Source: Maritimibacter sp.
Lineage (GTDB): Bacteria > Pseudomonadota > Alphaproteobacteria > Rhodobacterales > Rhodobacteraceae
Length of the DNA: 64,000 nucleotides
Direction of reading: 5' to 3'
Assembly (NCBI GenBank): GCA_002695005.1
Contig: NZNT01000026.1
Span: 310,001 to 374,000 of the forward strand
The translations under genes were made by a program, and so were the position numbers. Below, in pieces: positions 40,821-61,815 of the stretch (its first letter is position 1; each line of letters starts with the position of its first letter). The notes under the pieces are model-generated. The model saw only the letters and a program-made list of their open reading frames with translations. It searched no databases and was not told the origin of the DNA.

Positions 40821-41489
40821 ATGTTCAATTACGATCCATCCGCATTCCGGACGGCTCTTGCCGAGGAAGGCTACGTCCACCTCAAGGGTCTTCTCAGCGA
40901 CGATTTCGTGCGCGGGCTTCAGGACCTGTTCGACGCGGCGTTGACCGGCGGCGACACGGAAAGCGCCGAGTGGCGCATCTCGAAGAAGAAACGGCAGTTC
41001 GTGTTCGACTTTCCGTCGACCGAGGCCGCCGAGACCTTCCGCACCGGCATGGCTGCACTGACGGGCATCCCGGCGGGCGACCTCACCATCTCCGAGCGTC
41101 ACATCAAGCTTTATGAGCCAGAAGCCGATCCCTACCCTGCCCCGCACAAGGACCGTGCGGCGTCGTTCTATTCCATCGGCCTGCCGATCCGACTGTCCGA
41201 GGGTTCGTCGGTCTGTGTCTTTCCCGACCTCGACCCCGGCCCGAATACCGAAGAGCGCGCTGTGTTCCTCGAACCCGCTGAGGGGCAGGCCCCCGCTGAT
41301 CTCTATTCCTCCGATGACGCGCGTATTCTGAACGAGCAGGTCGGCGACGTGATCGTGTTCCTGGGCTCCGGCCTTTACCACGAACGGATGAAGGCCGCCG
41401 GAACGGCCGTCCTTTACATCAAGGTCAACGGCGAAGGCGACGACCCGCTGGGCGAGAATATCTACGCCCGCGACAACGTCACGGCCTGA
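40821..41489 (+). CDS. 2-oxoglutarate/Fe(II)-dependent dioxygenase-like protein (PhyH-type)
   Basis: A 222-residue protein with the facial triad expected of Fe(II)/2OG oxygenases: His109 and Asp111 in PAPHKDRAAS, and His187 in GSGLYHERM. The N-terminal LAEEGYVHLKGLLSDDFVRGL is like the phytanoyl-CoA dioxygenase start. The ATG has AAGGGA upstream. It precedes a FemAB/CelD-type gene by 19 bases. A role in hydroxylating an amino acid or lipid used in the adjacent glycan locus is possible, but the substrate is unknown. Confidence 0.75.
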   Translation: MFNYDPSAFRTALAEEGYVHLKGLLSDDFVRGLQDLFDAALTGGDTESAEWRISKKKRQFVFDFPSTEAAETFRTGMAALTGIPAGDLTISERHIKLYEPEADPYPAPHKDRAASFYSIGLPIRLSEGSSVCVFPDLDPGPNTEERAVFLEPAEGQAPADLYSSDDARILNEQVGDVIVFLGSGLYHERMKAAGTAVLYIKVNGEGDDPLGENIYARDNVTA

Positions 41490-42730: not shown

Positions 42731-43519
42731 ATGGATTTCCGCGACATTGACGTGCGTAGCGATACGAGTAAGGACAACGTTTCGTCGAAATTCCTGAAAC
42801 CGGGTGCGACCAACTCGCTGCCCAAATCGGCCGACATATCACCCGGTCCCGGATTCATGGTGCGAACGCGTTTCGACCGACCCGACGCCGATGTGGTCGC
42901 GGGCTTCGAACACTTCGAGTCCACCGACATTTCCGACAGCCTCAACCGGCTCTATGCGATGGGTCCGGGGATACACAACGTGGTCAACGACGCGCCGCTC
43001 TGCGGCCCCGTCTGCACGGTCAAGGTCTATCCCGGCGACAACCTGATGGTGCACAAGATCCTCGACATCGCCCAACCCGGCGACGTGGTTGTGGTCGACG
43101 GATCAGGCAGCATGAACGCGGCGCTGATCGGAGACCTCGTGTCGAACAAGGCCCGCCATCGCGGCATCCAGGGTTTCATCATCGACGGACTGGTGCGCGA
43201 CCTGCCCGGCCTGCGTGAATGCGGCCTGCCGATCTATGCGCGCGGCGTGACCCCGTTCGGCCCGCTCCATCGCGGACCGGGCGAGATCAACTATCCGGTC
43301 GCCTGCGGCGGGATCGTGGTCAATCCGGGCGACATCGTGCGTGCCGATCCGTCCGGCGTGGCCGTGGTGCCGCGCGACTGGGCGCCGGAAATCCTCAAGC
43401 GCCTTCGCGCGGGTGAAGAAAAACTGGCCGCCTACACCGCGAACGTGAAACGCGGTGTCTTTTCGAACGCCTGGGTCGATGACCAACTGGAGGCCGCAGG
43501 CTGCATTTTCGATGACTAG
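42731..43519 (+). CDS. RraA-like / HMG-CHA aldolase family protein
   Basis: A 262-residue protein. DISDSLNRLYAMGPGIHNV, CGPVCTVKVYPGDNLMVHKI and GFIIDGLVRDLPGLRECGLP match the RraA-like fold, which contains class II 4-hydroxy-4-methyl-2-oxoglutarate / 4-carboxy-4-hydroxy-2-oxoadipate aldolases. GFIIDGLVRD holds the conserved glycine-rich and Arg-Asp elements of the aldolase active site. It is longer than RraA (about 160 residues), so RNase E regulation is not expected. The stop overlaps the start of the CphA-like gene by eight bases. Confidence 0.85.
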   Translation: MDFRDIDVRSDTSKDNVSSKFLKPGATNSLPKSADISPGPGFMVRTRFDRPDADVVAGFEHFESTDISDSLNRLYAMGPGIHNVVNDAPLCGPVCTVKVYPGDNLMVHKILDIAQPGDVVVVDGSGSMNAALIGDLVSNKARHRGIQGFIIDGLVRDLPGLRECGLPIYARGVTPFGPLHRGPGEINYPVACGGIVVNPGDIVRADPSGVAVVPRDWAPEILKRLRAGEEKLAAYTANVKRGVFSNAWVDDQLEAAGCIFDD

Positions 43520-44630
43520 AACCGTCACACCGACGGCCGGCGGCGCGGGCTTTCTGCCCGACCTCGACCGGCTGCGCCGCGCTGCGCGGCTCCATCGCCT
43601 GCCCGATGCGCTGAACGTGCTCAAACGGCGGCGGCTTGCACCCGTGAGCCGCCGGTTTTACCGCGAGATGTGGCAGGCCGCGGCGGACAACATCGGCGCG
43701 ACCTGCCGCCCGGTCGGGCCCGGCCTGACCCGGATCGACCGGGACGGGTACGCCACCTTCGTGGAAGGTTCGGACCTGATGCTCGACAGCGCCGTGACCC
43801 TGTCCATGATCGGCGACCGGGAGGTGAGCTTTGAACTGATCGCGGGCCACGGCATCCGCACGCCCGCCTACAGGGTCTTCGACCGGGCACGGGCGCGGGA
43901 GGCGGAGGCGTTCCTCGCGGCGACGGGTGGCCCCGTGGTGGTGAAGCCCCTGCGCGGGACCGGCGGCGGGCGTGGCGTGACGACCGGCGTGGATACACCC
44001 GAACGGTTGCGGCGGGCCATCCGCCGCGCGGCCCGGTTCGGACGCGACCTCGTGGTCGAGGAGCAGGTGCCGGGCGACTATTACCGCCTGACCTATCTCG
44101 ACGGCGACCTGATCGACGCGGTGCGTCGCGACCCGCCGGCCCTCGTCGGCACCGGCGACAAGACGATCCGCCACCTCGTCGCGCGGGAGAATGACCGCCG
44201 TTTGAACGGGCCGGTTCCCACGGCTTTGAGCCCGCTCCTGATCGACGCGGATATGCGCAACCGGCTGGCCGAGGACGGGCGGCGCCTGTCCGATGTGCCG
44301 GCCCGGGGCGAGACGGTCGTGGTCAAGCGCGCGGTGAACGAGAATGCGGCGGCGCAGAACCATTCGGTTCAGGGTCAGGTGCCCGAGGCGACGGCGGCCC
44401 GGCTGGGCCAGCTTGTCACCGACCTTGGCCTGCGCTTCGCGGGCGTCGACCTGATGACCCCCGACCTCGCCACACCTCTTGGACCTGAAGGGCCCGTGGT
44501 GATCGAGATCAACGGAAACCCCGGCCTGCATCACCATGTCCTCGTCGCGAACCCCACTCAGGCGGTTCCGGTGCCGCGGATCGTGCTCGAACACCTGTTC
44601 GCGAACCGCGTGGGCGTGGTGCGGCCGTGA
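43512..44630 (+). CDS. CphA-like ATP-grasp ligase
   Basis: A 372-residue ATP-grasp protein resembling the central domain of cyanophycin synthetase. VVKPLRGTGGGRGVTTGV is the nucleotide loop, VVEEQVPGDYYRLTYLDGDL follows, and GVDLMTPDLATPL with VVIEINGNPGLHHHV gives the Mg-binding Asp/Glu/Asn end. It lacks the C-terminal Mur-ligase-like domain of CphA, so it should form a single amide or thioester bond rather than the full polymer. The ATG at 43512 overlaps the RraA-like stop. Confidence 0.83.
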   Translation: MTRTVTPTAGGAGFLPDLDRLRRAARLHRLPDALNVLKRRRLAPVSRRFYREMWQAAADNIGATCRPVGPGLTRIDRDGYATFVEGSDLMLDSAVTLSMIGDREVSFELIAGHGIRTPAYRVFDRARAREAEAFLAATGGPVVVKPLRGTGGGRGVTTGVDTPERLRRAIRRAARFGRDLVVEEQVPGDYYRLTYLDGDLIDAVRRDPPALVGTGDKTIRHLVARENDRRLNGPVPTALSPLLIDADMRNRLAEDGRRLSDVPARGETVVVKRAVNENAAAQNHSVQGQVPEATAARLGQLVTDLGLRFAGVDLMTPDLATPLGPEGPVVIEINGNPGLHHHVLVANPTQAVPVPRIVLEHLFANRVGVVRP

Positions 44631-45838
44631 AGCATCGTGGCATGACCTCGACGCTCGACACCGCCTTGCCCGTGCTCCTTCTTGGGGGCGAGGCCAATAC
44701 GCTGGAAGTGGCGCGTCACTTCGGGAAAACCGGGATCGCGGTGGAGATTTCGGGCGGGTCGGACACCTGGGGCATGGCGAGCTGGCATTGTCGGCGGGCC
44801 TATCCCGTGCCCTCCGGAACGCGCACGCATGATTTCTGGCGGGCATTGCTGCTTGCGGACGATCACAGCCATGACGGCCATGTCCTGTTCGCGATGTGCG
44901 ACGATGCCATCGACTTCGTGTTGGAGAACGAGGCCGCGTTGCGGGACCGCTACCGGCTGGAAAAGTTCGACGGGCAGTTGCGCCGGGAGATGCTCGACAA
45001 GCAGCGCACGCTGGAATTGGCGGGCAAGGTGGGTGTGCCCGCCCCGGCCTACTGGCCGGTGGAGACCGCCGCGGACGTGGCGGCGCTTGCCGGCAAGCTT
45101 ACGTTTCCGGTCATGGTGAAGCCGATCCATTCGCACCTGTTCAATCACCATTTCGGGCGCAAGCTGTTCATCGTCGAGGACTCGTTCGACGAGGTGGTGG
45201 CGCGGGCGAACGAGGCGCTGGAGGCGGGGCTCGAGATCCAGATCGTCGAGATGATCCCCGGCCCCGACAACCTGCTGTCGAGCTACTACACCTATATCGA
45301 CGATCAGGGCGTGCCGCTGTTTCACTTCACCAAGCGGGTCGAGCGGCGCTATCCGGTCAATTCCGGCGGCGCGGTCTATCACGAAACGGTCTGGCTGCCG
45401 GAAACCGCCGAGATGGGGCTGCGGTTCCTGCGCGGGATCGGCTGGCGCGGGCTCGCCAATATCGAGTTCAAGCGCGACACGCGGGACGGCAAGCTCAAGA
45501 TCATCGAGGTCAACGCCCGCTTCACCGCCGCGCACCGGCTGCTGGTGCGGAGCGGCGCGCCCATCGACCTCGTTGCCTATTGCGACCTGACGGGGCAACC
45601 TGCCCCGGTGTTCACCAGCTATGCCCAGCATATGTATCTCTGGCAGCCCGTTCATGACTTCCGGGCGTTCCTTCAGTTGCGCGCGAAGGGCGAGCTGACC
45701 TTCGGCGGGTGGCTGGCGAGCCTGCCGTGGCGGCGGGCGATGAACCCGATCTTCAGCCTGTCTGATCCAATGCCCGGGGTCGCGCGGTTGCGTCATTCGC
45801 TGGCCCGTCAATGGGCGGTGAGGCTGGGGCGTGGCTGA
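44627..45838 (+). CDS. COG3919-like ATP-grasp carboxylate-amine ligase
   Basis: A 403-residue ATP-grasp protein. LLLGGEANTLEVARHFGKTG is the N-terminal Rossmann-like start, FPVMVKPIHSHLFNHHFG the ATP lysine region and LANIEFKRDTRDGKLKIIEV the metal-binding end. It belongs to the predicted carboxylate-amine ligase group often found in glycan clusters. Translation likely starts at GTG 44627, overlapping the previous stop as GTGA; ATG 44642 is the alternative. Its product is unknown. Confidence 0.82.
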   Translation: MKHRGMTSTLDTALPVLLLGGEANTLEVARHFGKTGIAVEISGGSDTWGMASWHCRRAYPVPSGTRTHDFWRALLLADDHSHDGHVLFAMCDDAIDFVLENEAALRDRYRLEKFDGQLRREMLDKQRTLELAGKVGVPAPAYWPVETAADVAALAGKLTFPVMVKPIHSHLFNHHFGRKLFIVEDSFDEVVARANEALEAGLEIQIVEMIPGPDNLLSSYYTYIDDQGVPLFHFTKRVERRYPVNSGGAVYHETVWLPETAEMGLRFLRGIGWRGLANIEFKRDTRDGKLKIIEVNARFTAAHRLLVRSGAPIDLVAYCDLTGQPAPVFTSYAQHMYLWQPVHDFRAFLQLRAKGELTFGGWLASLPWRRAMNPIFSLSDPMPGVARLRHSLARQWAVRLGRG

Positions 45839-46880
45839 TCCCGTCCGGGTCGGGACACCGGCGCTGACGGCGTTCGGCCGGGCGCTTATGGAACGCGCCG
45901 GTGTGGACAGTGCACAGGCTGAGAGCGTCACCGAAAACCTTGTCTGGAACGATGCCGCCGGCCGCCACAATCACGGCTTCGAGCGCCTGCCTGTCTTGCT
46001 CGACCGTGTGGCATCGGGCGCGATCCGGTGTCCGGCCGAGATTTCGGTGCGCGAGGTCGGACCGGCGCTTGCCCATCTCGACGCGGGCGGCGGCTTTGGC
46101 CAGCACGCCGGGAGGGTGGCGGTGGACCGCGCCTGCGACATGGCCGAGGCGGGGGGGATCGGGGTGGTCGGCGTGTCGGGGAGCAATTTCTACGGCACCG
46201 GCGCGGCGTTCGTTGCGCGGGCCACGGCGCGCGGGCACATCGCCTTTGCCCTGTCCAATTCCTACGCCAAGGTGGCCGCCCATGGCGGGCGCGCGCCGGT
46301 CCTCGGGACCAACCCGCTGGCCTTCGGCGCACCGCTGGCAGACGGCGACCTGATCGTCGATTTCTCGACCGCTGCGCTGGCGGGATCGACGCTGCGTGAC
46401 GCACAGGCGACCGGCACGCCGCTCCCCGAAGGATTGGCTATCGACACGGAGGGAGCGCCCGTCACCGATCCGGCGCAGGCGGCCGGGGCGACGCTGTTGC
46501 CGGACGCGGGGGCCAAGGGCTTTGGCCTCGCTTTGATGGTCGAGGTGCTGGCGGGCGTTCTGACCGGCGCGGGCATCGGGCCGGAGGTCGGCTCGCTTTA
46601 TGCCGACACCGACCGCCCTGCCGACAATGGTCATTTCTTCCTCGTCCTCGATCCCGGGCGCTGGTTGCCCGGTGGCGGGTTCGGTGAGCGGATGGCGGCA
46701 CTGGCCGGGATGGTGGCGGCGTCGGCCCCCGAGGGGGTCGTGCGACTGCCCGGCGCCGCCCGTGCGGCAGCTTTGAGAGAGAGCGCGGAACAGGGTGTTG
46801 CCCTCACAGCGGCAACATGGGCCGGGCTCGGAGGGCTCGCGGAGCGCCACGGGGTCGCCCTGCCCAAACGTCGGTCATAA
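45831..46880 (+). CDS. Ldh2-family malate/lactate-type dehydrogenase, divergent active site
   Basis: A 349-residue NAD(P)-dependent 2-hydroxyacid (or imino acid) oxidoreductase of the Ldh2/AllD/ComC group. GRHNHGFERLP keeps His48, SNSYAKVAAHGGRAPVLGTNPLAFG and DAGAKGFGLALMVEVLAG are standard. The family's SxHFG histidine is replaced: GSNFYGTGAAF has Phe at residue 120. It starts at GTG 45831, overlapping the ATP-grasp stop by eight bases. Perhaps it reduces a 2-oxo acid from the RraA-like aldolase, which is inference. Confidence 0.83.
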   Translation: MADPVRVGTPALTAFGRALMERAGVDSAQAESVTENLVWNDAAGRHNHGFERLPVLLDRVASGAIRCPAEISVREVGPALAHLDAGGGFGQHAGRVAVDRACDMAEAGGIGVVGVSGSNFYGTGAAFVARATARGHIAFALSNSYAKVAAHGGRAPVLGTNPLAFGAPLADGDLIVDFSTAALAGSTLRDAQATGTPLPEGLAIDTEGAPVTDPAQAAGATLLPDAGAKGFGLALMVEVLAGVLTGAGIGPEVGSLYADTDRPADNGHFFLVLDPGRWLPGGGFGERMAALAGMVAASAPEGVVRLPGAARAAALRESAEQGVALTAATWAGLGGLAERHGVALPKRRS

Positions 46881-46935: not shown

Positions 46936-48543
46936 ATGACACTCGACATTTGCGTCATCCTCGACGCGGGCCGGCCCGTCGGCCCGGGAGAACGCCGGTT
47001 CCTAGCCGCGCTGGCGGATGATCCGCGTCTGTCCGTGGCGGGGGTGTTCACCGCGCCGGGTGCCGATCCCCTGCTCCCCGCAATTCTGCGAGGGGCGCTC
47101 GCGGTTGAAACCCGCGCCTTTCCCGCGCCAGACACTGCGCCGCCATTGGCCAGGACGCCGGAGCCGATCCCGCCTGACGGGTTGCCCACTTGCGATGTGA
47201 TCGTCGATTTCGCTGGGTCCGCGCCGGAGGCCGCACCGGTGCATGGCATCTGGCGGCTGTCCTCCTTCACGCCGGAGGCTGCGATTACCGAGGCCCGCCT
47301 GCGCGCGCCCGTAACCGAGGTGGTTCTCAGTGTCGAGAACGGCGGCGCGGCCCGCCCGATTGCCAGCGCCCGCTATGACACCAAGTTCCTTGCCACCCGC
47401 AACGCCGCCTATGCGCGGGAGAAATCGGTGCAGCTTCTGCACCGGGAACTCGCGCGGCTGGCCGGGACGAACACCCTGCCCGCCCCGATCACGCCGCCCG
47501 ATGCGCTGACGCCTCCGCGTAGCAGCCACCTGCCCGACTACATCGGTGCGGTGGGCCGGGAGCTTGCCATGCGGGCCTGGCGCAAGGTGCAGGCCAAGCG
47601 CGGGCAGCGGCCCGGCATGTTCTTTCTGCGCCTCGGGCATGGCACGTTGGCCGACCTCGACCCCGCCACCGGCACCGACCTGATCCCCGACGGCAATACC
47701 TATTGGGCCGACCCGTTCCTGTTCGAGGACAGCGGCGAGACCTACCTGTTTTACGAGGATTTCGACTTCGCCACCGGGCGCGGCCACCTGTCGGTGGGGC
47801 GGCTCGACGGAGACGGGATGGTTCCGCTGGGCCCTGTGATGGTGCAGCCGCATCACCTGTCCTACCCTTTCGTGTTCCGGTGGGGCGATGAGATCCTGAT
47901 GATCCCCGAGACGCATCAGGCCGAGCGCATCGAGGTCTGGCGCGCCACCGAGTTCCCGCTAAAATGGGAGCTTGCCTCGACCGCGCTCGAGGGTGTGAAG
48001 GCCGTGGATAGCGTGGTGTTCGAACGGGCGGGCGCGTGGTGGCTGATGACCAACATCTGCCGCGACAGTTTCGGGGACTTCGGGACGGAACTGCACCTTT
48101 ACCGGATCGACGATCCCTTGCTGGGCGGTGCGACAGCCCATCCGCTCAACCCCGTCGTGATCGACGCGACCATTGCGCGTGGCGGGGGGCGTGTGTTCGA
48201 ACACGAGGGGCGGCTGTTGCGGGCCAGTCAGGACAATTCGCACGGGATTTATGGATACGGCCTGAACCTCATGGAGATCACGGCGCTGAGCGACACGGAT
48301 TATGGAGAGCGCCGGTTGCGCTACCTGTCGCCCGAGGCGCTGGACGGTGTGATGGGTCTGCACCACATGGACGCGGCGGGCGGGCGCACGGTGATCGACC
48401 TGCGGCGCACCTTCACCGGGCTGCACCGCTCAGGGCGTGGGAAGCACCAGCACGCGGCGGCGCAGGAAAACCACCATGAGGACGAGCCAGATCGCCGCCG
48501 CCTCGGTAATGGTGAGGCCGAGCCCGACTTCCCGGCCCAGTGA
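46936..48543 (+). CDS. GINT1-like glycan-modifying protein (beta-propeller domain)
   Basis: A 535-residue protein. The C-terminal 300 residues have GNTYWADPFLFEDSGETYLF, FRWGDEILMIPETHQAERIE and FERAGAWWLMTNI. They resemble the N-terminal domain of glucosamine inositolphosphorylceramide transferase (GINT1) and GH32/43-like five-bladed propellers. The first 200 residues are formyltransferase-like at best. The ATG at 46936 was chosen at the start of the conserved part. The last 114 bases run antisense to the flippase gene, with a low-complexity tail rich in His, Arg and Glu; the true stop context deserves care. Confidence 0.72.
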   Translation: MTLDICVILDAGRPVGPGERRFLAALADDPRLSVAGVFTAPGADPLLPAILRGALAVETRAFPAPDTAPPLARTPEPIPPDGLPTCDVIVDFAGSAPEAAPVHGIWRLSSFTPEAAITEARLRAPVTEVVLSVENGGAARPIASARYDTKFLATRNAAYAREKSVQLLHRELARLAGTNTLPAPITPPDALTPPRSSHLPDYIGAVGRELAMRAWRKVQAKRGQRPGMFFLRLGHGTLADLDPATGTDLIPDGNTYWADPFLFEDSGETYLFYEDFDFATGRGHLSVGRLDGDGMVPLGPVMVQPHHLSYPFVFRWGDEILMIPETHQAERIEVWRATEFPLKWELASTALEGVKAVDSVVFERAGAWWLMTNICRDSFGDFGTELHLYRIDDPLLGGATAHPLNPVVIDATIARGGGRVFEHEGRLLRASQDNSHGIYGYGLNLMEITALSDTDYGERRLRYLSPEALDGVMGLHHMDAAGGRTVIDLRRTFTGLHRSGRGKHQHAAAQENHHEDEPDRRRLGNGEAEPDFPAQ

Positions 48544-49845
48544 CTCCCGCTGCCCGGTGGAGAGCGTGATCGCCGCGTAGGTCATCAGGGTGAGCGCAGC
48601 CGCAGGGAGGAAGGTCGTCACGATCTCCATCACCCGTAGTTGGAGCGCGCGCGAGATCGCGATGAGCGAGAGCGAGCCGACAACGACGCTTGCGCCGAGA
48701 TGTGAATAAGCGGCCGCCTCGGGTCCATAGCGCCCCACGGCGAAAAGCAGGATGACCAGCGTGGCCGCGCCCGCCGAGCGGATCTGAAGCTGCCGCCCGC
48801 CGTGGCTCGTGGTGATCATCACGGGTTCAAGCAGGCCCGACAGGAAAGCGATGGACTTGGAGACCGAGAGGATCGCGACGATGGACGCGGCCGCGAGCCA
48901 TGTTTCGTCGAGGATCGTCACCACCAGCATGGGCGCGAGCAGCGACACCGCGCAGGCGATGGGCCACAGGAGTGCGGCGGCGAGCGACATGTTTTCGATC
49001 CACGCGCGTTTCATCGCGTCACGCCCAAGCCCCTCCTTCTCGATCCGGGTGAACCGGGACCAGGACAGGATGCCCAGCGGCTGCACCACGAGGTCGGTGG
49101 CGGTCATGGCGATGCGGGCGCCGCCGCGGTAGGCCCCGACGACGGCGGGCGACAGGAAGGCGCCGAGGACGAGGTCAGCCCCGTAATTCGACAGGAGGCC
49201 AACGGACGTGGTGCCCCAGAGCGGGGCCGTCGTGCTGCGGGCGTCGCGCAGGGTCTCGCGCCGGAATTCGAACCGGGGAAGCGCACGGACCATACCGCCG
49301 GTGATGAAAAACCCGGTGAGCGTGGAGACATAACGCGAGGCGACGAGCGCCTCGATCCCCCATCCGCGCGACAGGAGGGCCACGGCAGCAGCGAGGCCGA
49401 GCGCCTCGGACAGGACGACATAGACGCTGGCGGTGCGCACCTTGGCATCGCGCACGAGCTGCGCCTCCCACCAGGCCGTGGGCACGATGACCAGAGGCAG
49501 CGGGGCGAGCGAAATGAGGGCGAGACCGCTTACCGTTCCAAGGCCGCCCTGAAGCAGGCCGACGACGAAAATCACCAGCATGGCAATGGCGCCCACGCCG
49601 AGCTTGGCCCAGAAGAGCGTGGAGCGGTCCCGGTCGAAATTCTGCGAGCGCAGGAGCGCCTGATAGAAGCCGGTGAAAACGAAGGTCGTCCCGATGACCG
49701 TGAGCGCCCAGGCGAAGGCATAGGTGCCGAAGTCGGCAAGATCGAGGTAGCGCGACGCGACCGCGACGGCGAGGAACGATATGACCTGACCGATAACGCG
49801 GGAGCCGACGCCGACGACATAGGGCGGGAACAGCTTGGCTAGCAT
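48430..49845 (-). CDS. Wzx-like oligosaccharide flippase
   Basis: A 471-residue multi-pass MATE/MVF-fold protein with about a dozen hydrophobic helices. GVGSRVIGQVISFLAVAVAS and LADFGTYAFAWALTVIGTTF near the N-terminus and GAYRGGARIAMTATDLVVQP are typical of polysaccharide flippases. It would move lipid-linked repeat units across the inner membrane. The ATG at 49845 has AGGGGGA upstream. Its 3' end overlaps the GINT1-like gene on the opposite strand by 114 bases. Confidence 0.88.
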   Translation of the reverse strand: MLAKLFPPYVVGVGSRVIGQVISFLAVAVASRYLDLADFGTYAFAWALTVIGTTFVFTGFYQALLRSQNFDRDRSTLFWAKLGVGAIAMLVIFVVGLLQGGLGTVSGLALISLAPLPLVIVPTAWWEAQLVRDAKVRTASVYVVLSEALGLAAAVALLSRGWGIEALVASRYVSTLTGFFITGGMVRALPRFEFRRETLRDARSTTAPLWGTTSVGLLSNYGADLVLGAFLSPAVVGAYRGGARIAMTATDLVVQPLGILSWSRFTRIEKEGLGRDAMKRAWIENMSLAAALLWPIACAVSLLAPMLVVTILDETWLAAASIVAILSVSKSIAFLSGLLEPVMITTSHGGRQLQIRSAGAATLVILLFAVGRYGPEAAAYSHLGASVVVGSLSLIAISRALQLRVMEIVTTFLPAAALTLMTYAAITLSTGQRESLGREVGLGLTITEAAAIWLVLMVVFLRRRVLVLPTP

Positions 49846-49982
49846 GGCCGTCCCCCTGCGCCGAGCGCGATGTAGCGTATCGGCAACGGTTTCACGCGGC
49901 TTGCGCGAACGCCTTGTTTTGCAAGGCAACGGGGCGCTGCGCGCTGTATTCGGGAGGTGTGACAGGACAAGCGCCGCGAACC

Positions 49983-50753
49983 ATGACGACACCCTCTCTC
50001 GCCATACGGGTCATCAGCCTGACCGACAGCACCGAGCGCCGCGCGGCGGTGGCCAAGAACCTGTCCGCCGCGACGTTCGACTGGGCGTTTCACGATGCCC
50101 ATCGCCCCGGTGACGACAGCGCGCTGATCCCCGATCCCGAAGGCCAGAAGCGGCTGTTCGGGCGCACTCTCACCCCCGGCGAGACGGCCTGTTACATGAG
50201 CCATGTCGCGGCGATCGAGACCTTTCAGGCGATGCCGGAACTCGACTGGCTGCTGGTGATGGAGGACGACGTCTGGATCGATCCGGATTTCCCCTATGCC
50301 GAGCTGGCCGGGGCGCTCGATGCGCGTGACATCGGCTATATCCGCCTGTTCGCACGGGAATGGAAACGCGGTCTTCCGCAGTTCCGGTTCGGCGAGCGGC
50401 AGATCCTTTACCTTACGTCCGATCCGTACGGCGCGCAGGGCTATCTCATCCGCCGCGACCGGGCGCGGGCCTTCCGCGCGCGGCTGACCCACATCCAGCG
50501 GCCCATCGACGACGAGCTGGGACGGTTCTGGGAGAACGGGCTGGGCAACCACATCCTGTTTCCCTTCCCGCTGATCGAGCGGCACATGCCCTCGACCCTC
50601 AACAGCGCGCGCGAGGATGCCAAGGCCGGGACGATTCTGGCCGCCCCCGCACGGCTTCGGGCGCGGCTGGGCGATTTCGTCGCCAAGCGGGCCTATCTCG
50701 CCGCCCGACGTATGCCGTTCACGCGAAACCGGATCCGGGCGCGCAAACGCTAG
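49983..50753 (+). CDS. Glycosyltransferase family 25 protein
   Basis: A 256-residue glycosyltransferase. IRVISLTDSTERRAAVAKNL is the GT25 start, ETACYMSHVAAIETF and DWLLVMEDDVWIDPDF contain the nucleotide-sugar metal site (EDD), and GAQGYLIRRDRARAF closes the domain. GT25 enzymes add galactose or similar sugars to LPS or capsule. It is a single gene between leftward genes. The ATG at 49983 was preferred over 49914. Confidence 0.88.
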   Translation: MTTPSLAIRVISLTDSTERRAAVAKNLSAATFDWAFHDAHRPGDDSALIPDPEGQKRLFGRTLTPGETACYMSHVAAIETFQAMPELDWLLVMEDDVWIDPDFPYAELAGALDARDIGYIRLFAREWKRGLPQFRFGERQILYLTSDPYGAQGYLIRRDRARAFRARLTHIQRPIDDELGRFWENGLGNHILFPFPLIERHMPSTLNSAREDAKAGTILAAPARLRARLGDFVAKRAYLAARRMPFTRNRIRARKR

Positions 50754-50760
50754 CCCGGTT

Positions 50761-51981
50761 TCAATCACCCGCGACCTCCGCCATGTTCACGGCCATCCCG
50801 TTTTCACGCAGGACGCTCGCGATTCCGCGGCGGAAGTTGCCTTCGTCGAACTGACGGGCATGGGCGGTCAGCGTGGCTGGGTCGAGGTCGTCGTACCTCT
50901 CGGCCTCGAACGCCTCCACGGCGGCCATCAGGCCTTCGGCGTCGGCCTGTTCATACAGGAGGCCCGTGCGGCCGTGGACAACGGTGTCGAGCACCCCGCC
51001 CCGCGCCATCGCGATCACCGGGCGGCCGGCCGCCATCGCCTCGACCGGGACGAGGCCGAAATCCTCTTCGCCCGGAAATACGAGCGCCTTGCAGGCGGCC
51101 ATATAGGCTTTGAGCTTCTCGAACGGCACGCGGCCCAGAAAGCGGATGTTCTCGTTCGCCGTGGCGGCCAGCGCCTTGGCCGTCTTGTCCGGGCCGCCGA
51201 TGACATAAAGCGGTTTTCCGAGGCGGTTGAAGGCCTCGATGGCGATGTCCGGGCGCTTGTAGCCCGCAAGCTCGCCCGCCCAGAGGTAGAAGCCACCACG
51301 TTCGGCCGCCGTCGCAGGCGCGAAGTCGTCCACCGCCACGGGCGGATGCACGACACGCGCGTCCCGGCGCCAGTATTTGTTGATGCGCGCCTGAACATGG
51401 GTGGAATTGGCCATGAAGGCATCGACGCGGGCAGCGCTCGTCACGTCCCATTTGCGCAGTTCGTGGACCATGCGCGGCATGAGCGCGCGTTTCAGCGGGC
51501 CGGCGGCCGCATGGTAGACGTGATACTGGTCCCACAGGTAGCGCATGGGCGAGTGGGTGTAGCACAGGTGCAGCGCGTCGGGGGCCGGGATGACCCCCTT
51601 GGCCGGGCCGGATTCGCTCGACAGGACGAGGTCGAAGCCGGACAGGTCGATCTCTTCCAGCGCGCGGGGCATCCGGGTCAGGTAGTTCTGGTAAAGCCGT
51701 GTGGAGAAAGGCAGGCGCCCGACCGAGGTGAGGTGGACGGTCTTGGAGCGGATCAGCTCACTCACCTTCGAGGGGTCATATGCGTGGGTGAAGATCTCGG
51801 CCTCGGGGAACATGCGCAAGAGCGACTCGAGCACCTTTTCCCCGCCGCGCATACCGACGAGCCAGTAATGGATGATCGCCACGCGCGGGCCAGCGCCGCC
51901 GGGACGCCGCATCAGCCGCGGGGCGGCGGGTTTGCGGGGGGCGGAAAAACCTGGAGCCTGACGATCAAGCATATGCTGCAT
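50761..51981 (-). CDS. GT4 family glycosyltransferase
   Basis: A 406-residue GT-B glycosyltransferase. HYWLVGMRGGEKVLESLLRM is the acceptor-domain start, and FPGEEDFGLVPVEAMAAGRP is the retaining donor-site E-x7-E motif. GGEKV-type glycosyltransferases are common in exopolysaccharide clusters. The ATG at 51981 has GGAG six bases upstream; ATG 51993 is possible. It overlaps the Wzc-type gene by 17 bases and is thus in the same operon. Confidence 0.9.
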   Translation of the reverse strand: MQHMLDRQAPGFSAPRKPAAPRLMRRPGGAGPRVAIIHYWLVGMRGGEKVLESLLRMFPEAEIFTHAYDPSKVSELIRSKTVHLTSVGRLPFSTRLYQNYLTRMPRALEEIDLSGFDLVLSSESGPAKGVIPAPDALHLCYTHSPMRYLWDQYHVYHAAAGPLKRALMPRMVHELRKWDVTSAARVDAFMANSTHVQARINKYWRRDARVVHPPVAVDDFAPATAAERGGFYLWAGELAGYKRPDIAIEAFNRLGKPLYVIGGPDKTAKALAATANENIRFLGRVPFEKLKAYMAACKALVFPGEEDFGLVPVEAMAAGRPVIAMARGGVLDTVVHGRTGLLYEQADAEGLMAAVEAFEAERYDDLDPATLTAHARQFDEGNFRRGIASVLRENGMAVNMAEVAGD

Positions 51982-54082
51982 AGCTGTCTCCATAGATCTT
52001 CTCGGCCGCTTTCGGATCGACCTGGTTGAGCACGATGCCTGTCGGGCGCAGGCCGACCTCGCTGAGGGCGTCGAGCCCGTCGCGCACGGCCGTGCGGCGC
52101 GTGTCGTCCCAGCGCACGACGTAGATGATGCTCTCGGCCACCGCGCCGAAGACGAGGCCGTCGGCCACGTTCACCAGCGGCGGGGTGTCGATGATGACGA
52201 GGTCGTAGCAGCGTTTGAGTTCGGCCATGAGCGGGCGCAGCCAGTCCTCGGACAGATCGTCCGCGGCTTCCTGACACGGCGTTCCGGCGGCAAGGAAATG
52301 CACGCCCATGTCGCTGTCGAGGTGGATCGTCTCGGGCAGGTCGGCGGTTTCGAGAATGAAGTCGGCGAAGTCGTATTCCACGTCCCATCCGAACGTCTCG
52401 GCGAGCCGGGAGCGACGCAGGTCTCCGTCCACGACGATCACCGACTTGCCCGCAAGCGCGGCCATCTGGGCGAGCCCCATGGCGGTCGTCGACTTGCCCT
52501 CGCCGGGGTGTGAGGAGGTCACCATGACCACGCGGGCCTCGACGCCCTTTTCGCGCATCGACAGCATGGTGCGCAGCTGGCGCAGCTTTTCGCCCAGCAT
52601 GGTGTTGGAGTTGATCCGAAGGCCGCGGACCAGTTCGCGCAGGTTGGCCTGCGGCTGGAGAGGCAGGCTTGCCAGCACCGAAAGGCCGGTTTCCGCCTCG
52701 ACCTCGCGCCGGGTGCGGAAAGTCGAGCGGGTCATTTCCAGAAACAGGGCCGCCACGATCCCGGCGGTGAGGCCGAGGACAAGGCCGAAGGCGGCAAGCA
52801 GCTTGGGCCGCGGTGCGGCGGGCACGTCGGAATAGGTCGCGCGTTCGATGACGCGGGCCTCGGGGCGTTGCAAGCTCTCCTGCCCGCTGGCGGCGCTCAG
52901 GCGCGACAGCAGGGCCTCGTAGTTTTCGCGGGCCGCCATCGCCTCGCGCTCCAGCTGGCGCAGGCCGATGTTGTTGGCGGACATGTCGTTGAGTTGATCC
53001 TCGAGCGACTGGATGCCGTCCGCGAGGGATTGCTCGCGCAGGCGGGCGACCTCGAGGTCGTTGCGGCGCAGTTCGATGATCCGCTCGGCTTCCCGCTGTA
53101 GGTCGGCGTCCACGCGCCCGATCTCGTCCCGCAGGCGCTTGCGCTGCGGGTGGTCGGGGCCGAAGGATTGCGCCCACTGGTCGTCCTGCCGCTGAAGCGT
53201 CAGCTTGTCCTCGTTCAGCTTTTCGAGAAGCGGCGAGGTCACGGCCTTGGCGAGCGCGTCGGACCCCTGCGTCTCAAGCAGTCGCTTGAGCTGGTCATAC
53301 TGCGCCTCGGCGGTCACCCGCTCGGAGCGCGCGACGACGAGCTGGCTTGTGAGGTTGCCGAGTTGTTGCGTCGATGTCTCGTAAGTGCCGCCCTCTCGGT
53401 CGAGGGACGCGGCGCGGTAGCCGGCGAGTTCCTCCTCGGCGCGGTTCATCGCGGCGCGGGCGTCGTTCACCTGATCCTGAATCCACGTCGTCGCCTGCCG
53501 CGCGCTGTCGCGGCGGTTCTCGACCATCAGGGATATATAGGTGTCGGCGACGCCGTTCGCGATTTCCTGCACGATCCCCGGCTCGCCGCCTGAGAAGGAA
53601 ATGACGAAAACATAGCTCTGCGGCTCACGCCCGACGGTAAGATCTTTGCGGATCGCCCAGGTGAGATCCTTGATCCGCTTTTCCTCGGCCACGTCATAGA
53701 GCGGCTGGCCCCAGAAATGCGTTTCGAGCTTTTCGATCCCGAGGTCGCGGATCAGCCGCTCTATCAGGATGTTGGAGCGCATGACCGAAATCTCGGACTG
53801 GATCACCGGGTCCGAGAGGCTGAGGTTCGACACGACTTCGTCCGACGACATCACGCGCACCTGGCGCGGGTCGAGCATGACCTTGGAGAAGGACTTGTAG
53901 GTGGGAGCAAGCAGGCTCGTCGCGACATACATGAACAGCGCCAGCCCGACCGCGAGGCCCGCGATCAGCTTGTAGCGCGAAGCGATGGCGCCGAGCAGCC
54001 CGCGCACGTCGACGCGGTCGAGATCCTCGAACCGCGACGCTTTGCGCGCCGGTTGTGGTGCCTGCATGTCGAACGTGGTCAC
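51965..54082 (-). CDS. Wzc/ExoP-type polysaccharide co-polymerase and tyrosine autokinase
   Basis: A 705-residue inner-membrane protein. Two helices (about residues 38-58 and 425-445) bound a large periplasmic coiled-coil domain with Wzz features. The cytosolic BY-kinase has Walker A SSHPGEGKST, Walker A' VVDGDLRRSRL and Walker B VIIDTPP. The C-terminus EKIYGDSYAAYA has three tyrosines as autophosphorylation sites. It controls chain length and export. Translation starts at GTG 54082 with GAGGAG upstream. Confidence 0.94.
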   Translation of the reverse strand: MTTFDMQAPQPARKASRFEDLDRVDVRGLLGAIASRYKLIAGLAVGLALFMYVATSLLAPTYKSFSKVMLDPRQVRVMSSDEVVSNLSLSDPVIQSEISVMRSNILIERLIRDLGIEKLETHFWGQPLYDVAEEKRIKDLTWAIRKDLTVGREPQSYVFVISFSGGEPGIVQEIANGVADTYISLMVENRRDSARQATTWIQDQVNDARAAMNRAEEELAGYRAASLDREGGTYETSTQQLGNLTSQLVVARSERVTAEAQYDQLKRLLETQGSDALAKAVTSPLLEKLNEDKLTLQRQDDQWAQSFGPDHPQRKRLRDEIGRVDADLQREAERIIELRRNDLEVARLREQSLADGIQSLEDQLNDMSANNIGLRQLEREAMAARENYEALLSRLSAASGQESLQRPEARVIERATYSDVPAAPRPKLLAAFGLVLGLTAGIVAALFLEMTRSTFRTRREVEAETGLSVLASLPLQPQANLRELVRGLRINSNTMLGEKLRQLRTMLSMREKGVEARVVMVTSSHPGEGKSTTAMGLAQMAALAGKSVIVVDGDLRRSRLAETFGWDVEYDFADFILETADLPETIHLDSDMGVHFLAAGTPCQEAADDLSEDWLRPLMAELKRCYDLVIIDTPPLVNVADGLVFGAVAESIIYVVRWDDTRRTAVRDGLDALSEVGLRPTGIVLNQVDPKAAEKIYGDSYAAYA

Positions 54083-54450
54083 GTTTGCTACTCCTCGGCC
54101 TTCATGTGCGTTCTGTCACCGTCTTGTCCGGCACACACTTCGCCCATGCCGCCGACGCTTTGCCGATGGCCGGTCCCCGCATCGGAGACGAATACGCGCA
54201 GCGCCGGAACATCCCGGCCACACCACGCGCCGTGGTGAAGTGGTGGCAAAACAGACAATGGACCCCACGCAAAGGCCCCCCCAGTCCTCGCAAATATACG
54301 GGCTCGGGGGCATTCACGCTACTGAATTGCGGAAAATTTTGGGAAATTACTCAACACGTTACCGTATTTTGGCCTCAATTCCATACCGACGTGGAAACAA
54401 TGAAACGACTGGGAAAAACTGGTTCGCAACTGGCAACAGTGCCGGGTGGG
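54083..54450. other. Regulatory gap between Wzc-type and polymerase genes
   Basis: No gene is supported here; short open frames on both strands lack ribosome sites and recognisable domains. The part from 54310 to 54440 is clearly AT-richer than its surroundings, which suits a promoter for the leftward wzc-GT4 unit. No consensus operator was recognised. Confidence 0.5.
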
Positions 54451-55887
54451 TTATCCTGCCCGTGCTGCGGTTGATTCTATCCCGAGTGCCCGCGACAGCC
54501 CGGTGAGCAGACCGGCGAGCGCGAAGAAGAAGACGCCCATGTCCGGCGTGGAGTGGGTGAGCACCGCAGCGCAGAGCATGGCGAGGCACCCGGCCTTGAG
54601 CGCGCGCACCACGATGGCGCGCGGGTCCGACAGCGGCCGCGACGGGGCGAGGCCGAGCGATGCCATGAAGGCGAGAAACAGAACTGTTCCCGGCACGCCG
54701 ATACTGGCGAGACAGGCGATCACCCAGTTGGACGCGCGCACCGATCCCAGACCCGCGCCGAGCCCGTAGGTATCCCAGGCGTTCTGAAGCGCCTGCGCGT
54801 TCCAGCCCATCCGTTCCACCCCGGATTGAGAGTCGAGCTTGGTAAACAGCGCCCGGTCGAGGAAATCGGTGACGGGCTGGACGTATTCGTAAGAGGCAAA
54901 GACCGCCACTGTCGCGACCCAGGCCGTAAGGATGCCCCCGGCGGCCAGCATGAAGGCGCGGCGGCTCGTCTCGGGCCGCAGGTTGGCGAAGATCGTGTAA
55001 AGCGCGAACAGGCCGAGGAACACGACGAGCGCGATATAGGCCGAGGACGAGGTAGAGCGCAGCACCGAGATGGTGGACAGCGCGAGCATCCAGCGGCCCA
55101 GCCGGTTCTCGGGCCTGAGCAGCCAGAACTGCATCCAGAAACCGAAGAGGCCGAGGGTGAAATAGCCGAAGCTCGACGCCTCGGGAAACCCGCCGATCAT
55201 CCGCTTCATGCCCACCATCCGGTCGGTGATGTGCATCGCGTAATTGGCCGAGCGCAGCCAGGACATAAGGTCGGTCATGCCGAGTTGAAATGTCAGAACG
55301 TCGAGCCAGCCCAGCGCGAAGTTGATCGCCGTCGCCACAGCCAGCGCAGTCAGCACCGGCTGCACGGTCGAGGTGCGGCGAAAGCTCGTGGCGAGCGCGG
55401 CGAAGGTCAGGAAGCCGAGCATGAGCCGGAAAAGCTGCGTGATGTTGCCGGTGGTCGGCTGGAGCGGGAATTGCAGGATGCGCGTCATCCCCTCGATCCG
55501 CGCGATCAGGAACACGCTCGTCTCGCCCGCGAAGAGGCGCGGGAAGAACATCGTCGCGATGAAGGACACCACCATGACCAGCGCGAACCAGAACCCCGGA
55601 CCGAAGGGGCGAAAGCTGCCCAGAAGACTGCCCGCTGTCCCGCGCGTCAGAAGCACCATGCAGAAGATCGCGACGGCGGCGAGGTCAAGCACCCCGATCG
55701 TCGCGCCGCCGAGTGCGGGCAGGTTGAACGCCGCCGCCGCCCCGAACGGGGCCAGCGCCATGAAGGCCCAGAGACCGCGATGGAGGCCCAGCCCCAGAAG
55801 CAGCAGGATCGACAGGACGGCGAGAACTGTTGAAGGGACGAATTGCAAGGGCGGGCGGTCCGTGGCTGCTGCCCTGTCTTCCTGCAC
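54451..55887 (-). CDS. O-antigen ligase/polymerase-like membrane protein (Wzy/WaaL family)
   Basis: A 478-residue protein with about eleven hydrophobic helices. A long extracytoplasmic loop contains MIGGFPEASSFGYFTLGLFG and SGVERMGWNAQALQNAWDTY with GLGAGLGSVRASNW, the Wzy_C-type pattern. It would polymerise or ligate the glycan repeat units. The start is uncertain: GTG 55887 is used, because the divergent hydrolase gene begins at 55950; TTG 55845 is an alternative. No good Shine-Dalgarno is visible. Confidence 0.85.
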   Translation of the reverse strand: MQEDRAAATDRPPLQFVPSTVLAVLSILLLLGLGLHRGLWAFMALAPFGAAAAFNLPALGGATIGVLDLAAVAIFCMVLLTRGTAGSLLGSFRPFGPGFWFALVMVVSFIATMFFPRLFAGETSVFLIARIEGMTRILQFPLQPTTGNITQLFRLMLGFLTFAALATSFRRTSTVQPVLTALAVATAINFALGWLDVLTFQLGMTDLMSWLRSANYAMHITDRMVGMKRMIGGFPEASSFGYFTLGLFGFWMQFWLLRPENRLGRWMLALSTISVLRSTSSSAYIALVVFLGLFALYTIFANLRPETSRRAFMLAAGGILTAWVATVAVFASYEYVQPVTDFLDRALFTKLDSQSGVERMGWNAQALQNAWDTYGLGAGLGSVRASNWVIACLASIGVPGTVLFLAFMASLGLAPSRPLSDPRAIVVRALKAGCLAMLCAAVLTHSTPDMGVFFFALAGLLTGLSRALGIESTAARAG

Positions 55888-55949
55888 GAAACAGGCTGTG
55901 CTGTGAAGTGCGCTTGCGGCAGGGGGGCCGCTCGGGCAGGCTTTCGGGC

Positions 55950-57599
55950 ATGATCCGCTTCGCCCCCCTTGCCCTCCTGGCACTCGCCCTCCCTGCCGTC
56001 GCGCAGGAGCCTGTCGGCCCCAAGCTGGGCGCCGCGTCGAACTTCGGGCAAAGCTGGGATGCCGGGATGCTGGACGCGGCCGAGGCGCTGGGCGTCACCG
56101 ATCTGCGCGACGCGGTCTACTGGAACGACGTGGAACAGGGTGGCGTGGACAGGTTCAACACGTTCCGCAGCACCTATCCGGCCCTCCTGCCCCCGCGCGG
56201 CATGGGGATGAGCGCCACTTTGAACAACGGGCACGCGGACTATGACGGGGGCGTCACGCCGCACACGGCCGAGGCGGTCGCAGGGTTCGGAGACTTCGCG
56301 GCCCGGCTGGTTGCCCAATACCCGGCCATCGACGCCGTCGAGGTGGGCAACGAGATGAACAGCGCCACCTTCACCTCCGGCCCGATGCGCGAGGCGGACC
56401 TGTCCGGAAAAGCCCGGTATTACACCGCCCTGCTCGCCGCCACCAAGGCGGCGGTCGGGGCTGCGCGGCCAGAGGTCCGCATCCTTGGCGGCGCGGCCCA
56501 TTCCATTCCGATCGCGTGGTTCAAGGCCCTGTCCGAAGCCGGTGCGCCCGCGCATATGGATGCGGTGGTCGTCCATCCCTATACGACCCCGCCCGAGCAG
56601 TTCGTCCGCCAGATCGCGCTCATGCGCGCCGTGCCGGGGTTCGGTGACTTGCCCATCGAAGTGACGGAATTCGGCGACGAGAACGCGGCCAGCGCGCCCG
56701 CGACGCTGGTCAAATACTACTGCCAGATGGCGCTCGCCGGGGTGACGCGGGTGGTGTGGTATCCGCTGAACCCGCGCGGCGACGGGCTGGCCCCGCTGAT
56801 CGACGCGGAGAACGCCATGACCCCGGTGGGCCGCGCCTTTGCCATGCTTGGGCGTCACGCCGCGGGGCGGGCCGTGCGCGACGTGGCGCCCGATCCGTTC
56901 ACCTACGCCTGCGGCTTCGGGACCGACAGCCTCGTCCTCTGGGGTGCGCCGCGCACGGTCGAGGTGGCGGACGGTGTTCGGGTGCTTGCGCCTGACGGGA
57001 CCGAGACCGACCGGCGCCGCCTGTCGCGCGACGAACCGCTCGTCATGGTCGGCAGTGGCGCACCCGTGACGCTGGGCGACACCGTGCGGCTCGGCCCCCA
57101 GGCCGTCATCGCGGACAGTTTCGACCAGTTCACCTATGGCCCGCCCGCGCCCGGCACGTTCCGGCCGCTTGCGATGATCCGGGGCGAGGAAAGCGCCTTC
57201 GAGCTGCGCGACGGGCAGCAGACCAACGGTGTGCCCTGGACACCGTATCTGGGTCATCCCTCGGACGGGCTCTTGCGGATGAACGCGGAGTTCCTGCTGC
57301 CCTCCGGCGGCGGCGCGTCTGCCGCCGTGATCGTCCAGCGCTACACCGCGCCCGAGGCTGTGCGCGCGCGGCTTGTCGTGACGCTGGAGCCCTCACCGCG
57401 CAGCACGGACGGGATCGAGGCATGGGCGGCGATCAACGGGGACGAGATCGGGCGCATGACCCTCACCGAACGCGGGGAGTTCGTGCTGGACGAGGTGACG
57501 CTGGCCAAGGGCGATGTGCTGGACGTGGCTGTCGGACCGGGGGCGACGGCGGACGGGGACACGACGCTTTACCGCGTCACGCTCCTGCGCGCGCCCTGA
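55950..57599 (+). CDS. Exported GH39/PslG-like glycoside hydrolase
   Basis: A 549-residue protein with a signal peptide ending near AVAQE at residue 19. A (beta/alpha)8 domain of clan GH-A covers about residues 25-330. AVEVGNEMNS has the acid/base Glu135 after Asn, and IEVTEFGDE has the nucleophile Glu240. PslG-type enzymes trim exopolysaccharide in the periplasm. The C-terminal 200 residues look like beta-sandwich modules. The last 31 bases overlap the convergent pyruvyl transferase gene. Confidence 0.85.
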   Translation: MIRFAPLALLALALPAVAQEPVGPKLGAASNFGQSWDAGMLDAAEALGVTDLRDAVYWNDVEQGGVDRFNTFRSTYPALLPPRGMGMSATLNNGHADYDGGVTPHTAEAVAGFGDFAARLVAQYPAIDAVEVGNEMNSATFTSGPMREADLSGKARYYTALLAATKAAVGAARPEVRILGGAAHSIPIAWFKALSEAGAPAHMDAVVVHPYTTPPEQFVRQIALMRAVPGFGDLPIEVTEFGDENAASAPATLVKYYCQMALAGVTRVVWYPLNPRGDGLAPLIDAENAMTPVGRAFAMLGRHAAGRAVRDVAPDPFTYACGFGTDSLVLWGAPRTVEVADGVRVLAPDGTETDRRRLSRDEPLVMVGSGAPVTLGDTVRLGPQAVIADSFDQFTYGPPAPGTFRPLAMIRGEESAFELRDGQQTNGVPWTPYLGHPSDGLLRMNAEFLLPSGGGASAAVIVQRYTAPEAVRARLVVTLEPSPRSTDGIEAWAAINGDEIGRMTLTERGEFVLDEVTLAKGDVLDVAVGPGATADGDTTLYRVTLLRAP

Positions 57600-58774: not shown

Positions 58775-58814
58775 CGTGGACGCGTCCTTGAACCGGGGAT
58801 TGCGAAGAATTGCC

Positions 58815-58829
58815 TTAAAATGACCTTAA
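58815..58829. promoter_or_regulatory. CtrA-type full site
   Basis: TTAA-AATGACC-TTAA, followed by C, is an exact TTAA-N7-TTAA(C) match to the alphaproteobacterial CtrA consensus. It sits in the 128-base divergent region, 41 bases upstream of the pyruvyl transferase start and 74 bases upstream of the GT4 start. It suggests that this step of glycan synthesis is tied to the CtrA phosphorelay. Confidence 0.6.
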
Positions 58830-58902
58830 CAGTCTGCGGATACTCTGATGAACTGCCGAAAGACAGTAAAACAAGACTTTCGTGAGGCCGCAGGAACAAT
58901 TC

Positions 58903-61093: not shown

Positions 61094-61122
61094 TCTGGCT
61101 CTCCGGTCCGTATGCGCGGCGC

Positions 61123-61815
61123 TCAGCACGCGCCGCGTTGGGCGAGGACGACCCCGACCGTTTTGTAGACGATCTGAATATCGTCGACGAGCGAAGCGTT
61201 GCGGATGTAGTCGACGTCGAGCACGACACGCTGCGCATAGCTCGTATCGGACCGGCCGCCGACCTGCCACGCGCCGGTGATCCCCGGCTTGACCGAGCAG
61301 TAGTCGGCAAAGTGATGCCCGTACTTCTCGGCCTCGGCCATCGTGATCGGGCGTGGGCCGACGATGGACATGTCCCCTTTGAACACGTTCCAGAACTGCG
61401 GCAGCTCATCGATGCTCGTGCGCCGCAGAAGGTCGCCCAGCGAGTGAACGCGCGGGTCGCGGTCGAGCTTCTGCTCGGCGTCCCATTGTTCGCGGGCAAT
61501 CGGGTCGATCGCGAACACCCATTGCAGACGCCGGTCCCCGTCCTCGCGCATCGTGCGGAACTTGTGGCAGCGGAACGTGCGGCCATCGATGCCCACGCGT
61601 TCGTGCGAGAAGAACACCGGACCCGGCTCGCGAAGACGCAGCATCAGCGTGACGACGGCGAAGACCGGCGACAGCGCGATGAGCGCGAGAGTCGAGAAAA
61701 GGATATCGAAGCCCCGCTTGAGGACTCGTTTCACATCAAGCTTGCGGTGTGTCCGAAGCGGCGATGTCGGTTCCAGCGCAGAAACTGAAACCTGCGGTTC
61801 AAAATCAAATGCCAT
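61123..61815 (-). CDS. Exopolysaccharide initiating sugar transferase (ExoY/WcaJ type)
   Basis: A 230-residue phosphoglycosyl transferase that loads the first sugar phosphate onto undecaprenyl phosphate. One helix ([20 protein letters not shown], about residues 43-65) is followed by [32 protein letters not shown] and [16 protein letters not shown]. There is no N-terminal four-helix domain, so it is the short monotopic form. It heads the leftward transcription unit with the GT2. Confidence 0.93.

Follow-up and report, generated by a model that had tools for sequence, protein, structure and literature searches.

A recurrent module of an RraA-like aldolase, two ATP-grasp ligases and an Ldh2-fold enzyme with an altered active site, found beside an exopolysaccharide locus in Maritimibacter

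In a 64,000-nucleotide stretch of a 4.27-Mb Maritimibacter genome (contig C26, positions 310001-374000; hereafter the window), an earlier note had drawn attention to four overlapping genes at 42731-46880, which it read as one compact unit encoding an RraA-like aldolase, two ATP-grasp ligases (ATP-grasp 1 and ATP-grasp 2) and an Ldh2-like dehydrogenase. A check of the open reading frames (ORFs) found all four on the plus strand at that place, with successive overlaps of 8, 4 and 8 bases, and the same genes were present in the same order in 19 of the 20 other loci that hold both ATP-grasp genes (20 of 21 with the window), which supports the reading as a single unit. Moreover, the Ldh2-like proteins of these modules carry a phenylalanine in place of a histidine that is essential in the related dehydrogenase AllD. 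We believe, at about even odds, that the module is dedicated to the biosynthesis of a pyruvate-derived acid in amide linkage, which crosses the membrane and in this genome is probably built into an exopolysaccharide. This proposal starts from four kinds of observation, namely gene order, co-occurrence, residue patterns and fold assignments.

The loci were sought through profiles of ATP-grasp 1 or ATP-grasp 2, and never through RraA or Ldh2. In a first batch of 12 non-window loci, 11 held RraA, ATP-grasp 1, ATP-grasp 2 and Ldh2 in this order, and in 10 of the 12 both ATP-grasp genes again overlapped by 4 bases. A fresh test in the order to which locus L006 belongs, with genomes none of which was shared with the earlier samples, yielded strong matches in 9 of 150 genomes (that of L006 among them), and all eight new loci held the four genes in order. 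Both ATP-grasps in these loci were approximately 43-71% identical to those of the window, and the holders of the full set include, by name, Henriciella mobilis and Psychromarinibacter sediminicola. The pairwise distances of the four proteins agreed with each other (Mantel r of 0.74-0.85 over 12-13 loci). An RraA more than 43% identical to that of the window was found in only two of 295 genomes of the family, both of them cassette holders; cassette-type RraA was thus not met outside cassettes in that sample. Chance adjacency, which we had considered, is ruled out by the 19 loci in the same order, and the idea that the four genes belong together, which the earlier note would have given up had they not co-occurred elsewhere, stands. 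Scans for promoters and terminators gave no signal exceeding chance, and comparison with PHROGs gave a single weak match.

Counting the query genomes, the family sample gave strong matches in 5 of 394 genomes, the genus sample in 2 of 8, and the orders of L004 and L003 in 3 of 249 and 1 of 149, respectively, while the window's genome was the sole strong match among 292 in the order sample and among 385 in the class sample, the latter with two weak matches besides; since these samples overlap and a limited number of candidates was scored per genome, the absences are uncertain. Five distant ATP-grasp 2 homologues (25-29% identity; L058, L059, L070, L071 and L078) were counted apart from the cassettes. 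The other three genes were absent from their stretches at E 1e-5, the stretch of L058 being only 5.3 kb long; that of L078 carries a GINT1-like segment of 25% identity. Locus L007, with two ATP-grasp 1-like segments (28% identity) and no partners, was left out of the cassette counts.

The Ldh2-like protein matched Ldh_2 (PF02615) along nearly its full length (E 2e-86; 290.5 bits, cut-off 38.8), and those of the module formed a single clade with support of 100/100. The partial sequence of L105, which counts as a gap in the residue comparison with AllD, was left out of this tree, and the two proteins of L117, identical to those of L111, were counted once. In AllD, the variants R48A and H116A are inactive (excerpt of PMC3527362). 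The position of His116 was occupied by Phe in 20 of 20 module proteins (F120 in the window) and that of Ser43 by Asn, also in all 20. At the position of His44 we found His in 10 (window included), Phe in nine and Tyr in one, and 10 of the 20 proteins lacked His at both active-site positions. In the window, N47, H48, R52 and L56 align to AllD S43, H44, R48 and Y52. The equivalents of Arg48 and of the cofactor residues T156, D174 and K224 were kept throughout (20/20). Among 31 control Ldh2 proteins, drawn from class-sampled or cassette-holding genomes, the His116 position held His in 25, Asn in three, and Ala, Ser and Met in one each, and Phe in none. The module enzyme thus shares its domain and cofactor residues with the Ldh2/MDH2 oxidoreductases (AllD, sulfolactate dehydrogenase, DpkA), whereas it differs from them at the positions of His116 and Ser43 and scored below all five listed equivalog cut-offs. 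To judge from these residues, NAD(P) binding is probably kept and the usual acid/base route for the reduction of 2-oxo acids is probably missing. As a separate observation, the three controls with Asn at the His116 position (L101, L102 and L110; motif SYNCG) keep His44 and group together, and they represent another atypical Ldh2 group.

The first gene of the module encodes a protein of the RraA superfamily (PF03737, E 4e-46; 157.4 bits, cut-off 24.5) whose best PDB match was the HMG/CHA aldolase 3noj (E 3e-30). The equivalents of the catalytic Arg-Asp pair and pocket residues of 3noj (N71, H75, D102, R123 and D124) were kept in 20 of 20 module RraA proteins; D102 has a part in the HMG/CHA aldolase. 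The module proteins clustered together in a tree (support 88/98) in which some control branches were long. Since these residues are intact and R123 is critical in the HMG/CHA aldolase (partial text of PMC5065237), the module RraA is likely a pyruvate aldolase, and the reading as an aldolase in the earlier note is supported; oxaloacetate decarboxylation is possible as well. It is not an HMG/CHA aldolase of the LigK/ProA type in every respect: although fold family and the five residues are common to both, His occupied the position of K147 in 20 of 20 module proteins, where 10 of the 16 RraA-type proteins taken for comparison have Lys, and the scores fell below the NCBIfam equivalog cut-offs (139.1 against 179 and 127.4 against 304.5 bits). 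The nearest NCBIfam model was the uncharacterised subfamily PRK06201 (230.3 bits, just under the cut-off of 231). The equivalents of R195 and E199 were not conserved in a rough alignment; they lie in a poorly alignable tail and nothing is claimed from them. A role as RNase E regulator was unsupported, the scores lying under the cut-offs for RraA regulators (98 against 136 and 51 against 241 bits) and the aldolase residues being kept.

The two ligases are unlike each other. ATP-grasp 1 matched PF07478 with 25 bits (cut-off 24) and the ATP-grasp part of the NCBIfam cyanophycin synthetase (E 2e-42; residues 112-385 of its ORF in the 391-aa form), and its PDB profile matches were CphA and chains of the bifunctional GshAB/GshF type, enzymes whose ATP-grasp domains form peptide bonds. 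In cyanophycin synthetase CphA1, the ATP-grasp (G) domain forms a peptide bond via an acyl phosphate (excerpt of PMC9427784). The similarity of ATP-grasp 1 to this domain extends over most of the protein, but it lacks the Mur-ligase part of cyanophycin synthetase and scored 139 bits against a cut-off of 850, and an identity with that enzyme was rejected. In the order sample, 35 other genomes with a match to ATP-grasp 1 reached at most 172 bits (571 for the window's own), mostly in long open frames. ATP-grasp 2 matched PF02786 with 25.4 bits (cut-off 19.8). The model predicted for it (predicted local distance difference test, pLDDT, 83) had an ATP-grasp fold with pyruvate and biotin carboxylases as nearest structures, followed at a distance by two L-amino-acid ligases, 3vot (rank 35) and 4wd3 (rank 46). 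The residues K145, D313, E332 and N334 of ATP-grasp 1, and K125, K165, E208, E280, E294, N296 and R298 of ATP-grasp 2, were kept in 21 of 21 loci, so that sequence and fold comparisons support the assignment of both as ATP-grasp ligases, which had been made earlier.

Distant relatives of ATP-grasp 2 (27-28% identity) were found in operons of a PIG-L deacetylase, a GT4 glycosyltransferase and an ATP-grasp on plasmids of Priestia and Cytobacillus, a layout that suggests the joining of an acid to an amino sugar; of three further distant relatives, one lay amid glycosyltransferases (Mesorhizobium) and two did not. The two plasmid operons (L129:5046-9240 of Priestia megaterium and L130:4014-9546 of Cytobacillus spongiae), whose ATP-grasp is labelled carbamoyl-phosphate synthase, continue with a phosphotransferase or ecdysteroid-kinase-like gene, and spore-coat genes lie nearby in Priestia. 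Their layout is presumably comparable to that of mycothiol or bacillithiol, and they perhaps represent an undescribed amino-sugar amide pathway in their own right.

The features of the window are collected in Table 1. The flippase, Wzz-type, GT25, GT4, GT2, pyruvyl-transferase and WbaP-type genes at 48430-61896 indicate that the local setting is an exopolysaccharide locus, with the initiating transferase, Wzz, flippase and glycosyltransferases that define the Wzx/Wzy type; no family match to Wzy was obtained in the locus, where the ORF at 54451-55983 (minus strand) has nine predicted membrane segments. A homologue of the 222-aa protein, for which Pfam gave no match, was on the stretch in eight of the 12 first loci and two of the eight later ones. 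Its model (pLDDT 79) resembles alpha-ketoglutarate oxygenases and a prolyl-4-hydroxylase, and H109, D111 and H187 were invariant in nine of nine proteins. A GINT1_N homologue was present in seven of the 12 first loci, overlapping Ldh2 by 4 bp in L057, and in none of the eight later ones; in the window this gene is possibly in the same operon as the module. Both proteins look like accessories. An Acetyltransf_6 homologue was near the ATP-grasps only in L002, L057 and L066 (3/12 first, 0/8 later loci).

Table 1. The module and neighbouring features in the window.
Feature	Position	Strand	Remarks
RraA-superfamily class II pyruvate aldolase-like, module gene 1	42731..43519	+	ATG, 262 aa; PF03737
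ATP-grasp ligase 1, cyanophycin-synthetase/GshF-type domain, module gene 2	43512..44630	+	ATG, 372 aa; PF07478
ATP-grasp ligase 2, carbamoyl-phosphate-synthase-like, module gene 3	44627..45838	+	GTG, 403 aa; PF02786
Ldh2-fold NAD(P)-dependent enzyme, altered active site, module gene 4	45831..46880	+	GTG, 349 aa; PF02615
2OG-Fe(II) oxygenase-like, 222 aa, recurring accessory	40821..41489	+	model fold match
Acetyltransf_6 (GNAT), 357 aa	41509..42582	+	PF13480 E 8e-31; 148 bp upstream of RraA
GINT1_N-domain protein, 535 aa	46936..48543	+	PF24793 E 6e-34; 55 bp after Ldh2
Wzx-type flippase (MOP superfamily), convergent neighbour	48430..49992	-	PF13440 E 3e-27, PF01943 E 2e-21
Exopolysaccharide locus: GT25, GT4, Wzz-type, pyruvyl transferase, GT2, WbaP-type initiating transferase	49914..61896		Pfam and NCBIfam
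Polysaccharide pyruvyl transferase-like gene	57569-58774		in exopolysaccharide locus

Elsewhere, glycan genes were on the stretch in 10 of the 12 first loci (L002 included), and 10 of the 20 full modules, that of the window among them, lay in or beside polysaccharide genes. The eight new loci in the order of L006 presented a different picture. In seven of them a MOP-like membrane protein directly followed Ldh2; these proteins are approximately 425-450 aa long (340 aa for L151, whose gene call is rough), have 9-12 predicted membrane segments, were 34-73% identical among themselves, and had Polysacc_synt, a Wzx-type family, as their only Pfam match, in two of the four scanned. No glycosyltransferase was found among 26 neighbours scanned in seven of the eight loci, nor did the GT4, GT25, Wzz, flippase, GINT1 and Acetyltransf_6 proteins of the window have a match in the eight at E 0.01. 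The scanned neighbours, a minority of the genes in rough gene calls, included a riboflavin kinase, TrkH, ABC transport proteins, a nitrate-reductase-like protein and alcohol dehydrogenases. With a membrane protein after Ldh2 and no glycosyltransferase in sight, the shortest unit in this order is therefore RraA, the two ATP-grasps, the Ldh2-like enzyme and the MOP-like protein. The glycan setting assumed in the earlier note thus holds for the window's genome, which has a polysaccharide locus, but it is not universal, as these eight loci demonstrate within the neighbours scanned.

For the substrates, product and transport of the module we infer the following scheme. RraA, to judge from its aldolase residues, would join the enolate of pyruvate to a carbonyl partner, giving a 4-hydroxy-2-oxo acid. 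The two ATP-grasps would convert carboxylates to acyl phosphates and join them to amines, so forming two amide bonds, as their intact ATP/Mg residues and their nearest relatives suggest. The Ldh2-fold enzyme could then carry out a hydride step through its NAD(P) site with no need of the customary His acid/base; its most likely target would be an imine or hemiaminal, produced by reaction of the 2-oxo group with an amine or amide. The finished acyl unit would proceed to a membrane step, for which one order has the MOP-like gene after Ldh2, and in the window and nine other full-module loci it probably becomes an amide-linked decoration of a polysaccharide. The module is portable, its gene order being preserved across distant bacterial groups, and includes an Ldh2 clade devoid of the usual catalytic His. 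Amide decorations of one class on the surface glycans of bacteria could have their explanation in it, and the small size of its shortest version, with the MOP-like protein as fifth gene, would allow expression as a whole in order to find the product.

A more specific form of this scheme, which is a rather long shot, would end in a cyclic acyl group of the 5-oxoproline type. RraA would condense pyruvate and another 2-oxo acid, and one of the ATP-grasps would amidate the far carboxylate; the amide would close onto the 2-oxo carbon and the His-poor Ldh2 would reduce the resulting acyl-imine, after which the second ATP-grasp would attach the acid to either an amino sugar or an amino acid ahead of the membrane step. 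O-antigens of Vibrio and Plesiomonas contain amino sugars with N-acyl groups of this type, including 2,4-dihydroxy-3,3,4-trimethylpyroglutamate and hydroxylated methyl-5-oxoprolines (excerpt of PMC10609480). By our own reasoning, aldol addition between two 2-oxo acids and ring closure through an amide would be expected to give the skeleton of the former. These antigens, in which an oxoglutarate-like acid is amide-bound to an amino sugar, are a chemical precedent only, and they are one for the amide-linked decoration of the general scheme as well. If the cyclic version were true, the Ldh2 clade would be a new kind of imine reductase and the module a route to the 5-oxoproline acyl groups found on bacterial glycans.

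Several observations weigh against the biosynthetic unit proposed here. The sole exception to the gene order, L002 of Oceanibium, has both ATP-grasps and neither RraA nor Ldh2 on a 21-kb stretch, so that the ATP-grasps may work without them. The searches run found no flippase or glycan gene near the modules of L005, L006 and L145, the stretch of L006 stopping 261 bp past Ldh2. The MOP-like proteins were merely 18-20% identical to the window flippase, and two of the four scanned had no Pfam match. As the His116 equivalent is missing in six of the 31 controls, its loss alone is no proof of new chemistry. RraA-fold proteins also include oxaloacetate decarboxylases and RNase E regulators.

Some of these points would suit a small diffusible amide metabolite, such as an opine-like metal binder, an osmolyte or a signal, exported as such and placed only secondarily beside polysaccharides. 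The eight loci of the other order, which lie amid unrelated genes where scanned and have a membrane protein after Ldh2 in seven cases, agree with it, as do L005 and L006, where glycan genes were not recognised; we nevertheless hold it to be somewhat unlikely, because ten full modules, the window's included, are in or beside polysaccharide genes and the one Pfam match of the membrane protein, in two of four scanned, is to a Wzx-type family. The earlier note had suggested a glycan decoration or a small amide metabolite, with Ldh2 as a possible reductase of 2-oxo acids; as a glycan decoration, this would mean an ordinary reductase that supplies a 2-hydroxy acyl group. That Arg48, which is essential in AllD, and the cofactor residues persist in all modules, that His44, the acid proposed for DpkA, is kept in half of them (window included), and that the three controls with Asn at the His116 position may still be active would be compatible with such a reaction. 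However, with Phe at the His116 position in every module protein, where a change to Ala abolishes AllD activity (PMC3527362, in part), and the second active-site His in only half, ordinary reduction is doubtful, and we regard this version as improbable and that claim for Ldh2 as unsupported.

The least probable explanation, in our opinion quite unlikely, is a catabolic or salvage operon, in which RraA would cleave a 4-hydroxy-2-oxo acid, Ldh2 would oxidise a hydroxy acid and the ATP-grasps would recycle or tag intermediates. RraA relatives are known in aromatic catabolism (partial text of PMC5065237), AllD and other dehydrogenases of catabolism are among the named matches of Ldh2, and the module of L005 sits between nutrient ABC transporters; but a pair of ligases that consume ATP suits biosynthesis, none of the 20 module proteins retains the base that AllD needs to oxidise hydroxy acids, and half of the full modules have the polysaccharide surroundings mentioned above.

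The absence of a described pathway, asserted earlier, was borne out within one open-access library, in which, lacking as it does most subscription journals, no paper named both ATP-grasp and RraA; wider literature searches gave no description of the four-gene set either. That ATP-grasp ligases occur in surface-carbohydrate loci is known already, and it is the set itself for which a description was not found. In the CA_C2195/DUF4910 neighbourhood, an ATP-grasp aminoacyl ligase accompanies glycosyltransferases, several loci also having an export protein and a pyruvyltransferase, and a modified surface carbohydrate was proposed (excerpt of PMC4000134). That excerpt names a single ATP-grasp and neither RraA nor Ldh2, whereas the module has two unlike ATP-grasps between an aldolase and an Ldh2-fold enzyme. 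A Vibrio capsule cluster with rraA was discarded as a precedent because the gene there is merely the cluster boundary (partial text of PMC11641403).

Additional observations were made around the modules. The initial approximately 250 residues of the window GINT1_N protein have no family match. A gene of the same Pfam family as the window pyruvyl transferase lies near the module in L069. In L005, two unannotated proteins without a family match (5210-7854) separate an oligopeptide-type ABC transporter from the module, and by eye one is heparinase-like and the other resembles an oligogalacturonate-lyase propeller. Beside the module of L145 (2834-8124), we found a protein with caspase and FGE-sulfatase domains and a large WD40 protein.

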